Assembly: GCA_947172645.1 (NCBI GenBank)
Contig: CAMWBY010000012.1
Coordinates: 1-64,000 of the forward strand
Reading direction: 5' to 3'
DNA: 64,000 nucleotides
DNA from: an uncultured Lachnospiraceae bacterium
Lineage (GTDB): Bacteria; Bacillota; Clostridia; Lachnospirales; Lachnospiraceae
Below, one piece after another: positions 2,687 to 53,347 of the stretch (within the stretch, counting starts at the first letter, position 1; every line of letters starts with the position of its first letter). The position numbers and the translations under genes are program-made. Below the pieces are notes generated by a model. It was not told the origin of the DNA. It made no database searches and saw only the letters and a program-made list of their open reading frames with translations.

Positions 2687-5600
2687 TTATTTATCTTTAT
2701 CTGTATCTATGCCAATACCTTTATTCTTCTTTGCTTCTTTTTTCAGTTTTCTTGCTTCTTTCTTCTCCTGCCTGCGCTCCTTCTTCGCAATCCGCTGCTC
2801 TTTCCTCGTCTGCTTATCAATAATCAGATAGAACGTCGGAAGAAGGATTAGAATCAGAACCGTAGACGCAACCAGTCCGCCTATGATAACAAGCGCCATA
2901 CCTTGCATCATAACAGCGCCCTCTCCGATACCAAGCGACAACGGCAGCATGGATAAAATCGTAGTCAGCGTCGTCATCAGGATTGGCCGCAGACGCATCT
3001 GCCCGCTCTTCACCAGAGCATCGTTTAGCGGTATCTCCTCCCGCAGCCTGTTGACGGTATCCACGTAAAGAATACCGTTGTTTACCACAATTCCGGCTAA
3101 CATCAACACACCCATCAAGGATACCATGCTCAGAGTAGAACCTGTAACAAACAAAAGCCCGAAAGAACCGATTAAGGCAAAAGGAATACTCGTCATAACC
3201 ATCGCCGAAAACCTTGGTGATTCAAACTGCATCGCCATAACAAGGAAAATCATGAATACCGCTACATAAATCGCGTGGATAATGGCATTAAACTCATCCA
3301 TCATCATATCATTCATCATACTGCTTGTTCTGGTAACCCCTCTTGGAAGCATAATCTGCAGCATGCCTTCTTCCGCCGCTGCCTGAGCGGTAAACCTTGT
3401 ATCTTCCGTGGTGTTTGCCGTAACCGCCACCTGATAGATGCCATCCACCCTGGTCAGTGTCACCGGCGCATCTTTATACTCTATCACCGCAAGTTCCGAT
3501 AAAGGCACCTGCATGCCCGCCGGAGTCGTCAACGTCATGTTGAGCAGGTCATTCATATCCTCGTACTCACCATCAGGATATTCCAACCGGATAGAATACT
3601 CTTCCCCGTTCCTTGTCAGAGTAGCCGCCTCAGTACCGCTTAACGCACTGCGCATTTCTCCTGCCACCTGCATAGGCGGCAGCCCTACGGACATACTCTT
3701 AAGCGGGTCAATGACAACTTCCAACTGTGTCGCCGCATCCGAAAGATTCGAAGACACCTGTAACACACCGGGAATCGTCTGCATCATATCCTGTACCTGC
3801 TTGGAAGCTTCTTTCAAATCGTCAAGGTCACGTCCCTGCAAGTCAATCTCAATACCGCCGCCCATCATGGAAGTTATGCTTGCCCCGCTTGCCGTGATAC
3901 TGATGTCCATGCCTGTCAGCCCCGCAAGCTCCTTAGTGTACTTCTCCACCGCCTCGTTTGTGGTGATGTCGGCATCATCTTTCAGCTGGGCGCGCAAGCT
4001 TGCCGAACCTGCGGAAACCTGGTAAGAGTATTCGTCTATGTTTTCATCCGCTTCGGCCATTTCTTCCATAAATGCCGTCCGCTCAGCAGTCGTCTCTAAG
4101 TTTGTCCCCGAACGAAAAGTCGCCCGGATTGTGAAGGAACCTTCATCCATAGACGGCATAAGTTCCGAATTGGTATTGCTCACCAGTACGAACGCGCCGA
4201 TAAGAAGCGCAACGGCGATGCACATAACCAACTTCTTTTTGTACAGTAATCTATGTAATACTTTCTCATATCCGCTGTTCACTTTCCGAAGCAGTTTATT
4301 AATAGGAAGGTCCTTTTTCTCCTCCGGTTTAAACTTCCTAAACAAAAGCGGAATGATTGTCATGGCGGCAACAAGCGATGTCAGCATCGCTATGATAATC
4401 GTCACGCCAAGCTGCGCAAACATCTGCCCGGACAATCCTTTCATAGTACTAAGCGGCAGATACACAACAACCGTCGTAATCGTCGATGCGATAATAGACG
4501 CCGTCACAAACCCTGTTCCCTTTAACGCAGCTTCATGATGCTCGCCGGTCTCGTCTTTTAGCCTGAAACAACTCTCCAACACGACGATGGAACTGTCTAC
4601 CATCATACCGATAGCGATAACAAGCGCTCCCATCGTGACTACGTTAAACGTAAAGCCCAACATATTCATGCCAATCATCGTGGCAAACAGTGATATCGGC
4701 ATAGAGCTTCCTACGATTAGGCTCGCCCGCAGGTCGCCGAAAAAGATAAACAGCACGAGCATCGACAAAACAATGCCAATCACAAGCGTCTCAGCCACCG
4801 ATGACAGAGAGGAAATAATAGCGTCGCTGGCATTATAAGTAATATCGATTACCACCGTATCGTTGGCTGCCTGTAAACGCTCCAGCATCTTCTCCACAGA
4901 CCTGGTAACATCCACTGTTCCGTAACTTTTCTTCTTCGTGACAGCAATGGTAATGTCTTCTTGTCCGTTGGTACGGCTGATACCGGAATCTTCGCTCTGG
5001 CTCTCGCTTACCGTAGCGATTTCCGAAAGAGGAACCACCTGTCCTCTCCCCGTCGTAATCGGAACATTCTGAATCTGCACGACCCCGGAAAGGTCAGCGC
5101 TGCTGGAAATCGAAATATCCTGTGTTCCCTGGCTGACACTGCCCACCGGAACCGTAAAATCCATGGAGGCAATCGTCTGGGAAATCGTGCTCATGGAGAC
5201 GCCATACTGTCTCATCGCCTGGGAGTTTAATTCCACCTTAATATAATTGGATTTACCACCGTAAGCCTCAACCCGGGCCACCCCGGATAAAGTCTCCAGT
5301 TCCGGCACCATGGTGTCTTCCACATAGCTGAGCACGTCGCTGTCGCCGACTGCCTTCACCGAAATATCCATGGTCTCCATCTGGTCCATCGCCATTTCTA
5401 TGATAACCAGCTCTGACACGTCTTCCGGCATACCGGATTTCACCGTATCAAGCGCCGAACGCAAATCCATATACGCTTCGTCCAAATCCGTCCCATATTC
5501 GTACTGGAACATGACCATAGACATATTTTCCGCCGACTGGGAAGTATAGGTAGTCACGCCACTCTGTTCTGCGCCTGCGGCTTCAATTTCTTTCGTGACA

Positions 5601-12203: not shown

Positions 12204-12222
12204 CTGTCAATCTTCTCCTGAG

Positions 12223-12568
12223 TGGACCAGACGGGAGTCGAACCCGTGTCCAAAAGCCCATTCCCTGTCCTTCTACTATCATAGTCTGTCATTGCGGATT
12301 GCTCCACATTCCCTCGCACACCAGGAAACAGACACCCCAATGTGCTCAGTAGCCTCTGATACGCCCGCAGGTAAGAGGCGTCCCCTGCGTCGTTTCCTAC
12401 ATAGTCGATGCCCGGTTCTTAATGTGTAGGTGCACTAAGGCGGACAGCTGCCCTTAGGCAGCGTATGCTAAATTGTCTTCAGCGTTTATATTTAGATTCG
12501 CGATTTGACGCATCGCCTGCGGATAGCTTCTCCAGCTGCAGAACCCCTGTCGAAACCTTGACTGGCCC
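12223..12568 (-). ncRNA. ssrA: tmRNA (transfer-messenger RNA)
   Basis: 346 nt. The 5' end GGGCCAG pairs with 3' CTGGTCC before the encoded A of CCA, and the T-arm GTTCGACTC is intact. The tag reading frame runs from GCG (12499-12501) to TAA (12454-12456) and encodes ANLNINAEDNLAYAA. Together with SmpB, tmRNA rescues stalled ribosomes and marks the product for proteolysis. smpB lies just upstream, rnr before it. Confidence 0.97.
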
Positions 12569-15417: not shown

Positions 15418-15721
15418 GATTAAGGTGTCAAAAGATGCTGTCATAAAACTTCACTGGCAGATTGCACAAAATGTCCACGAAGCTGTCCTTCGCAGGAATA
15501 TGAGATTTTCTTAATATTCCGTTAAGTACCCAGCAATTTTGGGACATGGATGTCCCGAAAAGCCCTCTCTGAGCTCGGATGGCGAATAGAGGGCGGTTGC
15601 GTCCGCTTCCGTAGATTCCACGGAATATTTTAGAAAATCCATATGACGGAGACAGACGCGAGTGGACTTTTGTGCAATCTGCCCAGACAATTTATAAAAT
15701 ATACCTTTTGACACCTTAATC
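15418..15721. mobile_element. MITE-like non-autonomous element with target-site duplication
   Basis: Terminal inverted repeats of 17 identical bases start with GATTAAGGTGTCAAAAG (15418-15434 and 15705-15721). A second inverted match GGCAGATTGCACAAAA lies inside each end (15456-15471 and 15668-15683). The element is flanked by the direct repeat CTATAAT (15411-15417 and 15722-15728), or CCTATAAT if one terminal base is assigned to the target. About 303 bp with no coding frame. It sits between secG and rnr. It is probably mobilised in trans by a transposase elsewhere; the family cannot be fixed from this window. Confidence 0.88.
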
Positions 15722-50490: not shown

Positions 50491-51159
50491 TTATCCCTCT
50501 AATGATACATATTTCTGTAACGCAGGATATTCACTGGCATGTTCACGCACATAACATCTTTTAAATGCAGCAAATGCAGATTCACGTCGCAACAAACTGC
50601 AAATTGTCCGCAGCAATACTTTAGAATCAGGATTTTTATGTAATTTTTCAAGGTGTCTGTATAAAATATTCATTTCTTGTTGAAGTAACTTTAACCTTGC
50701 ATCACTTTTATATATCCTCATCCCTGTATTTTTTAAAGAAAAAGTTTCTGTTACTAACAACGCAGTCCTCTTACATGTCTCATCATCCAAATCCATTGCA
50801 CTGACCACCACGTCATCATTTTCCACTTGAAAATGCAGATATTTCTCCGGCTCCTGTCTACAGCAGTCTATAATCCCCGCATCATATTTACTATTATTCT
50901 TAATACCATTACAATGTCCGCATGACCAGAAAAGATTTTCCCAATCAAATTTTCTCTCCGGATATTTTCCATTTTTATGAGGCAGTAAATGTTCTACATT
51001 CGGGTCTTGCAAATCTTTCATTTCACAAATATAGCACTTATTATGAAAATCCTTCTTTAACTGCTCTATCACATCTTGCCTGTCGTATCTTCCATTTGCC
51101 TTCTTTGCCTCCTCAGCTAAGGAAGCCGGAGCCGGAAATGAACGCTGTACTTTAACCAT
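50491..51159 (-). CDS. ptuB: PtuB-like HNH endonuclease of Septu defence
   Basis: 222 residues. The HNH site shows CYICEMKD (Cys42, Cys45), EHLLPH (Glu56-His57, His61) and NLFWSCGHCNGIKNN (Asn75, Cys80, Cys83), the layout of TIGR02646-type nucleases that serve as PtuB in Septu systems. The ATG overlaps the ptuA stop by 8 bp with GGAGG inside ptuA, implying coupled translation. The nuclease is thought to degrade DNA once the ATPase senses infection. Confidence 0.85.
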   Translation of the reverse strand: MVKVQRSFPAPASLAEEAKKANGRYDRQDVIEQLKKDFHNKCYICEMKDLQDPNVEHLLPHKNGKYPERKFDWENLFWSCGHCNGIKNNSKYDAGIIDCCRQEPEKYLHFQVENDDVVVSAMDLDDETCKRTALLVTETFSLKNTGMRIYKSDARLKLLQQEMNILYRHLEKLHKNPDSKVLLRTICSLLRRESAFAAFKRCYVREHASEYPALQKYVSLEG

Positions 51160-52408
51160 CTATATCCTCCCGGTTATTAAACTCTAATTTTGCTTTTTGA
51201 TATTCCGTCGATATGCCAAGCGCAAGATAATCAGGTATCTCATCCAAATAAAATTCTAACTGTGCAATTTCATTTAACTCATCATCAGATAGCCTTTCTT
51301 TTTTAACAAGGGCTTTATATTTCTCAAACTTTGTCTTCAGGATATCCGACAGCTTATCGGCACCAAAATACCCTTCCACAATACCGTCGTAGGGCACGTT
51401 TCCCAATCCCTTTTTGACTAACAGACGATTCTCCAAATCATAGATGACAGCATTCTCTATACTGTTGAGCACAAAAGGAGAATGTGTCGTCACAATAAAC
51501 TGTATATTCGGAAAAACAGTTGTTAAGAGTGGCATAATGTTCTTCTGTAACTCTAAATGCAGATGCGTTTCAATCTCATCGACCAGTACAATCCCCGGAA
51601 GACTAAAATCAAATGAACGCTGCGTCTGATTCTGCATACGCATAATAATGTCCAATACAATATCTAGCACTGCCTGATAACCACTGGATAATGTATTAAA
51701 ATCAAAGGGTTCTTTCCCCTGCTGCAAAATATGAAATGCAAAAGTATCCTCGTCAAACTCCAATGCCACAGTCTCGTCATCAAATATTTGTTGCAGAAGC
51801 TGCTGCAATTTTTCAAACCAAGTACGAATCTCATCCGCCTTTTCTGCCTTGTTATTATTTCTCGCCAACGCCTCCGTCATTTTCAAATCTAACAAATATT
51901 TCACAAACTCATTACGCGGAAATTCCGTCAGCCCATAGTTATCTTTTAACTGTACTTTCTCCACATGCCTGGGCTGCTCTGCCTGAAATATCCTGTCCGC
52001 CCTGTAATATGCCAATAGATAGTGGTATTTTTCTGCCAGTGCAGCAATATTGTTTGTTTTATTGCTAAACTGTACACCCAGTCCTTCTCTGCTTTCCTCG
52101 AAATCTTTCTTTTTCTCATAAACATGCTTCTCTAGTTTAAAAATTTCTGCTTCATCTTTCCCCGTCTGGATTGCCATGTCTCTTTTCTTTTCAGCATCAC
52201 TTAACCATTTTTTTCTTCCAAAGAAATAAACATCTGTAAGTGCGTTCTGTAAATATCCCGCCAAGGCTTCTATAACGCTTGTCTTCCCGCTTCCATTCTT
52301 TCCTGTTAAAATTAAGTGGTTAATTTTTTCTTCTGATAGTGGAATAGAAATATCTTTTAAATGCCTGACCTTTTCAATCGACAAATTCGTTATAAATAAC
52401 TGTTCCAT
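51152..52408 (-). CDS. ptuA: PtuA-like AAA ATPase of Septu defence
   Basis: 418 residues. Walker A GKNGSGKT (36-43), an ABC-type signature LSSGY (240-244), Walker B IVLVDE (273-278) with ETHLHLE, and the H-loop VTTHSPFVLNSI. A central coiled-coil insert (about 60-200) is typical of SMC-like/OLD-type defence ATPases. Together with the overlapping HNH gene this is the minimal Septu pair. Slightly more A/T-rich than its neighbours, consistent with horizontal gain. Confidence 0.85.
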   Translation of the reverse strand: MEQLFITNLSIEKVRHLKDISIPLSEEKINHLILTGKNGSGKTSVIEALAGYLQNALTDVYFFGRKKWLSDAEKKRDMAIQTGKDEAEIFKLEKHVYEKKKDFEESREGLGVQFSNKTNNIAALAEKYHYLLAYYRADRIFQAEQPRHVEKVQLKDNYGLTEFPRNEFVKYLLDLKMTEALARNNNKAEKADEIRTWFEKLQQLLQQIFDDETVALEFDEDTFAFHILQQGKEPFDFNTLSSGYQAVLDIVLDIIMRMQNQTQRSFDFSLPGIVLVDEIETHLHLELQKNIMPLLTTVFPNIQFIVTTHSPFVLNSIENAVIYDLENRLLVKKGLGNVPYDGIVEGYFGADKLSDILKTKFEKYKALVKKERLSDDELNEIAQLEFYLDEIPDYLALGISTEYQKAKLEFNNREDIDG

Positions 52409-52618
52409 TCCAATCCTCCATTTTCACAATAATTTCCATAGACATCACAAACTTGCTTGCAAGCTATCATAACCCTATATCCTATAATTTACCATAAACT
52501 CCCCACGAATGATACTTTTTTTACATCAATATAAGGACTGCCCAAATCCTGGACAGCCCTTATCACTTACTCTATTTATCTTCTTTACATTTCTAACGCC
52601 ATGCGCTACAATTAGATT
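52409..52618. other. Gap between ptuA and the sRNA gene
   Basis: Holds an AAGG-CTG-CC/GG-CAG-CCTT imperfect hairpin at 52533-52561 with no T-run, and the sRNA promoter. No coding signal seen. Confidence 0.5.
52584..52612 (+). promoter_or_regulatory. Promoter of structured small RNA
   Basis: TTTACA (52584-52589), 17-bp spacer, TACAAT (52607-52612). The predicted start, about 52619, is exactly the first base of the closing stem of the RNA. Confidence 0.75.
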
Positions 52619-52724
52619 GCGTCGTCAGTCCCGGGAGGGGTGCGGTCTCGCCCGTATTGCCGGTGTCTAGGCTCACTTAAAAGATTATCCTTAGAAACAC
52701 GCGGCAGCTGACGGCGCACCTTTT
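52619..52724 (+). ncRNA. Unassigned structured small RNA
   Basis: About 105 nt. Ends pair: GCGTCGTCAG (52619-52628) with CTGACGGCGC (52708-52717). Inside, TGCCG-GTG-TCT-AGG (52658-52671) pairs with CCT-AGA-CAC-CGGCA (52689-52706), and CGGG with CCCG forms a further arm. A competing stem GGTGCG/CGCACC precedes TTTT (52721-52724) as a terminator. A consensus promoter starts at the first stem base. I cannot match it to tmRNA, 6S, SRP, RNase P or a riboswitch I know. Confidence 0.7.
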
Positions 52725-53112
52725 ATTCAATCTGTGCAATCAGATTCCAAAAAGGGGAGCGTTCGTTTCTCCTTTTCTCCATCTCGTCATAGAATATGAC
52801 CCGGTCGCGGTAGTCGGGGACAACCCGCATAATGGACGCTTTCGCAAGCTGTCCCTGGCTCTTATTGACACAGATTATGTACTTGCCCTCCTTGCACTCC
52901 GGCGGTGCATCCCTTCTGTCTTCTATATCCGTGCCGGCCAGATTCACGGTGCCAAGTCCCGCCAATCCGAATTTCTTGTTGAATTTTATGAAAAAAGAGA
53001 TTCCTTCCCTGAAAAATACTTTCTTAATCCTCTCTTTCGTTGCACTGTCATATACCTCGCACAGGGCGACCTCATTGTTCACTTTAACTTTAGATAACTT
53101 CGATTCTACCAT
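52723..53112 (-). CDS. Hypothetical protein, 129 residues
   Basis: ATG 53112 has AAGGAGG upstream. I do not recognise the family. It looks like a small soluble beta-rich domain (LGTVNLAGTDIEDRRDAPPE, then EGKYIICVNKSQGQLAKASIMRVVPDYRDRVIFYDEM) followed by a short helical tail. Its 3' end overlaps the T-run of the convergent sRNA. Confidence 0.65.
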   Translation of the reverse strand: MVESKLSKVKVNNEVALCEVYDSATKERIKKVFFREGISFFIKFNKKFGLAGLGTVNLAGTDIEDRRDAPPECKEGKYIICVNKSQGQLAKASIMRVVPDYRDRVIFYDEMEKRRNERSPFWNLIAQIE

Positions 53113-53347
53113 ACTAATCCTCCTTGTCAGAGCAGTTTGCTGCGATGACACGCTTCCACTGCAAGCCCAAGAGTTACTTACAAGTACCTATCCTAACACA
53201 CGGGCCGCAGAAATGTCGTGAAGGAAATATGTAGAATTTCTTAAGATTTTCTTATCGGTGCTGACAAGCCTGTATGAAATGCTCTGCGCCATACACTGAT
53301 ACCGCCGCTTAATCACGATTATCTTTCGTTATTTTACGAGCATCCGG

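Follow-up and report, generated by a model that had tools for sequence, protein, structure and literature searches.

Positions 52584 to 52727 on the plus strand of the window, the whole 64,000-nucleotide stretch of uncultured Lachnospiraceae DNA analysed here, almost certainly constitute a real RNA gene, composed of a promoter (52584–52612), a folded RNA of about 105 nt (52618–52718) and a T-rich tail. The best reading of its RNA is as an undescribed structured family, new at the RNA-family level. On the strength of sequence comparison we lean toward a stand-alone gene that would act in trans through a four-way junction, most likely read by a protein, a partner to which we hold only loosely. 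The parts of the gene are given in Table 1; the folded region lies directly 5' of CCTTTTATT.

Table 1. Parts of the RNA gene in the window.
Feature	Position	Strand	Remarks
Sigma-70-type promoter	52584..52612	+	TTTACA 52584–52589, 17-nt spacer, TACAAT 52607–52612
P1 5' strand (closing stem)	52618..52629	+	Predicted RNA start here; 11 of 12 P1 pairs vary on both sides
P2 short hairpin, CCC-GGGA-GGG with GNRA tetraloop	52630..52639	+	Fold; GNRA in homologues
P3 arm	52640..52657	+	Conserved G-U wobble pairs at foot; loop of variable length; covariation
P4 long arm	52658..52706	+	Bulges in 3' strand; 18-nt loop, conserved at its edges (CUCA, GAUUAUC)
P1 3' strand	52707..52718	+	Fold, covariation
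T-rich tail	52719..52727	+	Probable intrinsic terminator together with P1

Homologues and distribution

BLASTN against 61 genomes (the bacterium's own and 60 relatives) found two more copies, 86 and 89% identical to the window copy, in which similarity begins at the −10 region and continues through P1, the −35 element also aligns, and the flanking genes differ. A distant BLASTN search of phages and plasmids gave no real match (best E about 1). Two covariance models were then used, R1 from three sequences and R2 from 56 aligned copies; model searches over more than 40 genomes ran with stricter filters, at which weak matches are lost. R1 matched 58 of 397 genomes of the family at E ≤ 0.1, and R2 matched 67 of the 397 sampled at E ≤ 0.01, and 62 of these pass E < 1e-6. 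Within the genus R2 matched 31 of 60 genomes, one match being cut at a contig end, and positive genomes in both the genus (60) and the family (397) searches carry a single match each. As roughly half of the genus is without the RNA, any role that it has must be dispensable.

Matches outside the family are weak, at most 26 bits in the order and phylum sets. R2 found 6 of 295 genomes of the order set, four strongly (all from the window's family) and two weakly (E 1e-4 and 1e-3), and 6 of 299 of the phylum set, where only the window's own match is strong and five are weak (E 1e-4 to 1e-2). None of these five has the whole conserved set, though in one, L125, letters resembling P2 are present and P4 is missing; the two lowest of the seven weak E-values are, however, somewhat below those expected by chance, so distant relatives outside the family are possible. 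A pattern scan of a collection of named genomes gave at least 120 stretches, and R2 confirmed 80 of 80 and 40 of 40 of those among the matches listed. Named carriers among the matches listed include Blautia parvula, Eisenbergiella tayi, Parablautia muri, Hungatella hathewayi and [Clostridium] citroniae. By NCBI label, the 120 matches listed comprise 91 Lachnospiraceae, 18 without a family, 7 Clostridiaceae, 2 Oscillospiraceae and 2 Eubacteriaceae, and we take the 11 labels of the last three families to be effects of labelling.

Most counts below refer to 166 distinct copies, namely the window copy and the rows of four alignments (A5, A6, A7 and A8), excluding copies found by R2 alone, L125–L129, the second match on L259, partial duplicates and identical sequences. 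Later counts also omit three matches of set A4, namely L093, L092 and the second one on L074. The L092 stretch (2953–3025, plus strand) is a partial copy that spans model positions 14–96 only and is perhaps a decayed gene.

Fold and covariation

The window RNA folds to −45.8 kcal/mol, a stability reached by 1 or 2 of 200 shuffles. Against dinucleotide shuffles its z score is −3.0, those of two homologues are −3.9 and −3.3, and the minus strand is less stable (z −1.85). The first-pass annotation, made from the letters of the window, described a closing stem, a long inner arm and another arm. These are all found, the closing stem with 10–12 pairs, and the helices are backed by covariation in homologues; the three-arm description nevertheless fell one arm short, because an extra short arm with a GNRA tetraloop makes the structure a four-way junction of P1, P2, P3 and P4. 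This tetraloop is present in 153 of the 166 copies. The annotation also proposed a competing stem near the tail and with it two mutually exclusive folds, and this is not supported, since the hairpin just 5' of the tail does not exceed chance expectation. The 3' end of the window RNA alone gives −5.1 kcal/mol, in contrast to the value for the whole RNA above, and 132 of 200 shuffles are as stable. A hairpin of −6 kcal/mol or better just 5' of the tail occurs in 51 of 161 copies (of the 166), against a mean of 49.6 when the P1 3' strands were exchanged among copies, and the mean energy of this hairpin is −5.44 kcal/mol, against −5.63 in the swaps.

Covariation across homologues, which had been proposed as a check, is very strong. 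In a 59-row alignment, three rows of which are doubtful, pairing holds in 95.8% of cells and both partners vary in 27 of the 35 pairs; the covariation score reaches 0.506, where shuffling gives 0.186 and sliding the partners no more than 0.097. For 80 rows from the genome collection, among the matches listed, the corresponding values are 95.3% and 20 of 35, with a score of 0.458 where shuffling yields 0.164 and sliding no more than 0.083. Fitting to the model biases both alignments towards its structure, and the shuffles ignore relatedness, which the slid control keeps. Mutual information in 120 rows recovered the same helices, and the top 45 pairs of that analysis included no further complementary contact of the kind expected from a pseudoknot or tertiary covariation.

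Conservation is unevenly spread over the fold. The sequence of P1 varies freely provided that pairing holds, although its outermost one or two pairs are poorly kept (the outermost is unpaired in 53 of 79 cells), whereas at the feet of P2, P3 and P4 the sequence hardly changes. The G-U pairs at the foot of P3 remain G-U in 75 and 65 of the 80 rows among the matches listed; this set was picked by a pattern that fixes letters in the top of P1, in P2 and in P4, so conservation at those places is biased. In 56 rows picked without a letter-fixing pattern, 25 of 70 paired positions are conserved in at least 90% of the rows, against 5 of 31 unpaired ones.

Promoter and tail

A scan of a 1.1-kb stretch gave 5 promoter-like sites against 2.3 expected, so that the window site alone is little proof of a promoter. 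Its −35 and −10 elements align, however, with TTTACA and TATAAT of two homologues, and the same region could be compared in a set of 133 copies that predates alignment A8, 131 of which have enough upstream DNA. A −10 hexamer (at least five of six bases matching) occurs in a 28-base search stretch in 123 of the 131, against 12.6% of random control sites, and within four adjacent positions in 101 of those 123. A −35 together with a −10 is present in 114 of the 131, against 3.2% of random sites in the same loci, in a test that accepted TTGCAT besides TTGACA, the former being derived from these same data; in 102 of the 131, a spacer of 17 fits best. The first-pass annotation had a consensus promoter start the RNA at the closing stem. 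The TTTACA-17-TACAAT site is indeed there, and from its placement we infer a start some 6–7 bases past the −10, that is, at the foot of P1.

TTTT occurs in the tail of 73 of the 133 copies, against 11% of control sites, and transcription would probably terminate at this T-rich stretch after P1. The RNA had also been said to overlap the next gene at its end; it does, but the overlap is confined to the last bases of the tail, where a 142-aa open reading frame on the minus strand (52723–53151) has its end at 52723. That frame has no Pfam, NCBIfam or PADLOC match, and DNA similar to it is found in three genomes of the genus (G001, G009 and G013), with no copy of the RNA alongside. Within the RNA itself a closed reading frame of at least 20 codons occurs in just 48 of the 166 copies, which makes a peptide an unlikely conserved product.

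Comparison with known RNAs

The annotation suggested an Rfam covariance search and could place the RNA in no known family, and the search bears out that judgement: neither the window copy nor the homologous stretch of 20 loci has a same-strand match. With Rfam 15 the window copy has no match at gathering score, and at E ≤ 10 it is hit once, below threshold, by a model of a viral pseudoknot that lies on the opposite strand at the tail; the homologous stretch in the 20 checked loci has none even at E ≤ 10. The raiA motif, a model of which we take to be included in Rfam 15, is absent from the window's results at gathering score and at E ≤ 10. At gathering score Rfam recognises just two RNAs in the window, tmRNA (12220–12568, minus strand) and a TwoAYGGAY RNA (15488–15654, plus strand). 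A Clostridiales-1 RNA match below threshold (E 3e-4) adjoins another copy of the RNA, at L066 1749–1873 (minus strand).

Among the better-known RNAs, one of similar build is the bacterial Y RNA (YrlA), which binds the Ro protein and is about 100 nt long, with a closing stem made from both ends and several arms. The window RNA shares its size, closing stem and arms, but it has no Rfam match and its P1 is variable in sequence, and TROVE/Ro proteins are found in none of 60 genus genomes, in contrast to a match in 1 of 14 control genomes. 6S RNA, also a stand-alone gene, has a fold with a large central bubble; the window RNA has a four-way junction in place of such a bubble, and again no Rfam match. 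The presence of an adjoining PtuAB-like pair recalls retron ncRNAs with PtuAB effectors, a comparison taken up with the neighbouring genes below.

In passages of three published papers (PMC8040213, PMC8632094, PMC11109978) the RNA is not named, although the supplementary lists, with thousands of candidates, may include it. The main text of PMC11109978, on GC-IGR surveys, presents high-ranking candidate orphan ncRNA classes and has no match to "Lachnospir". Like those classes as described there, the window RNA has a complex covarying fold, conserved bases and no consistent neighbour; the example described in section 14 of that paper is, however, an RNA of more than 350 nt from Thioalkalivibrio, whereas ours is of about 105 nt and from Lachnospiraceae.

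Neighbouring genes and phage copies

By simple ORF calls, the genes flanking the 166 copies are split 76 to 75 between the strands upstream, and downstream 83 lie opposite and 72 on the same strand; the commonest group of related neighbours occurs in just 6 of the 166 loci. With such varied neighbours, placed at random on either strand, the RNA would very probably act in trans. At first tRNA genes seemed linked to the RNA, 24 of 166 copies having one within 600 nt where 1.8% of control positions do; judged against other intergenic gaps, the excess is gone, the shares within 200 nt being 19 of 166 for the RNA and 10 of 88 for those gaps.

Phage DNA carries two of the copies, one on viral contig L259 (7291–7404, minus strand) and one at the prophage-like locus L238 (701–815, minus strand). 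Both are near a phrog_36 regulator, which we take to be ArpU-like, and near head, terminase and portal genes, on the strand opposite to these, and the L259 copy retains a TTGCAT-17-TATAAT promoter. When the loci of the 166 copies were searched with proteins from both phages, no further phage locus emerged, a count to be read as a lower bound. A general pattern, a near-identical form of which recovers 29 of 56 known copies, gave one match in 2.9 million viral contigs, and three further patterns gave no new one. It is a speculative and rather improbable idea that a Lachnospiraceae-specific RNP or regulatory RNA, carried also by phages and there placed by a late-gene regulator, may aid phage or host in controlling the switch to late transcription.

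Alternative explanations

Some explanations tie the RNA to its surroundings. Were it a leader acting in cis on the next gene, as a riboswitch or attenuator, its complex conserved fold would suit that role, and in part of the genus it does precede a P-type ATPase gene on the same strand (of 30 ATPase loci, 11 have the RNA whole and one has it cut). Yet a TTGACA-type promoter, seen by eye, stands between the RNA and the ATPase gene, with or without the RNA, the window's own next gene is on the other strand, and the differing neighbours and the 83 opposite downstream genes among the 155 loci with one called make a leader very improbable. At one ATPase locus, L282, a short 3' remnant of the RNA (identified by eye) stands where relatives have the whole RNA, which points to loss of the RNA there. 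In the window the RNA lies about 200 nt from ptuA, in a PtuA/PtuB pair (Septu-type ATPase and HNH nuclease; 50491–52408, minus strand) with strong PADLOC matches, and since PtuA- and PtuB-like proteins are known as retron effectors it might be the RNA component of that pair, for example a retron-like RNA. We find this scarcely credible: this contig has no reverse transcriptase match, the genome's only RVT_1 match at E ≤ 0.001 being on another contig, L037, with near-repeated stretches upstream (a region that resembles, we presume, a diversity-generating retroelement), and the window's ptuA and ptuB fall in no neighbour group of at least three loci, nor in any group inside the genus. If the RNA were instead a selfish element or a phage accessory, retained through its mobility, this would account for a patchy presence, for differing sites even inside the genus and for the two phage copies. 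That too is distinctly improbable, given one match per positive genome, no recurrent transposase-like neighbour group (judged by eye), the scarcity of matches in viral contigs and a fold under strong constraint. With leader, retron RNA and Y RNA each contradicted by a tested feature, a trans-acting structured RNA remains; the RNA shows what a stand-alone structured ncRNA would have, namely a promoter-like site of its own, a covarying fold and varying neighbours.

How such an RNA might act is less clear-cut. A base-pairing small RNA, in which the P4 loop (CUCA...GAUUAUC) pairs with mRNAs to alter their translation or decay and the rest is a stable scaffold, is possible but rather unlikely. It would suit a stand-alone gene with a promoter and often a T-rich tail, and the conserved unpaired edges of the P4 loop could equally be a pairing seed; but between these edges the loop varies, which resembles a structured loop more than it does a seed, and the near-invariant share is higher among paired than unpaired positions. 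That excess in helices (25/70 against 5/31) leads us to favour protein recognition over an antisense seed, and with the kept G-U pairs at the foot of P3 it suggests that helices, rather than an unpaired seed, are recognised. A protein partner, in preference to pairing with mRNA, is a tentative choice, and the families searched for in the genus, CsrA and TROVE, yielded no partner. As a special case of protein binding the RNA might titrate CsrA, which 58 of 60 genus genomes encode: GGA occurs 3.55 times per RNA, against 2.01 in shuffles, and two GGA sites are at the P2 hairpin in its usual GGGAGGAG form. Against this, the GGA sites are few and several lie within stems, the P2 tetraloop is without GGA (GAAA, GAGA or GCGA) in 25 of 166 copies, and CsrA is near-universal in a genus half of which has the RNA, so that we consider titration quite improbable.

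Proposed mode of action

For the preferred reading, a trans-acting RNA recognised by a protein, the features described above suggest the following course. RNA polymerase would start at the gene's own sigma-70-type promoter and probably stop at the T-rich tail 3' of P1, and the transcript of about 105–115 nt would fold into the P1/P2/P3/P4 four-way junction. A protein might then recognise this rigid fold, through the near-invariant feet of P2, P3 and P4 together with the P4 loop, to form an RNP or to be regulated by the RNA.

Significance

The broad kind to which this RNA belongs, the stand-alone structured ncRNA, is already known, and its mode of action may prove to be a known one as well. The Lachnospiraceae rank with the main bacteria of the mammalian gut, and a conserved, independently made RNA outside the known families would offer a direct entry to the gene control or RNP machinery of this family.
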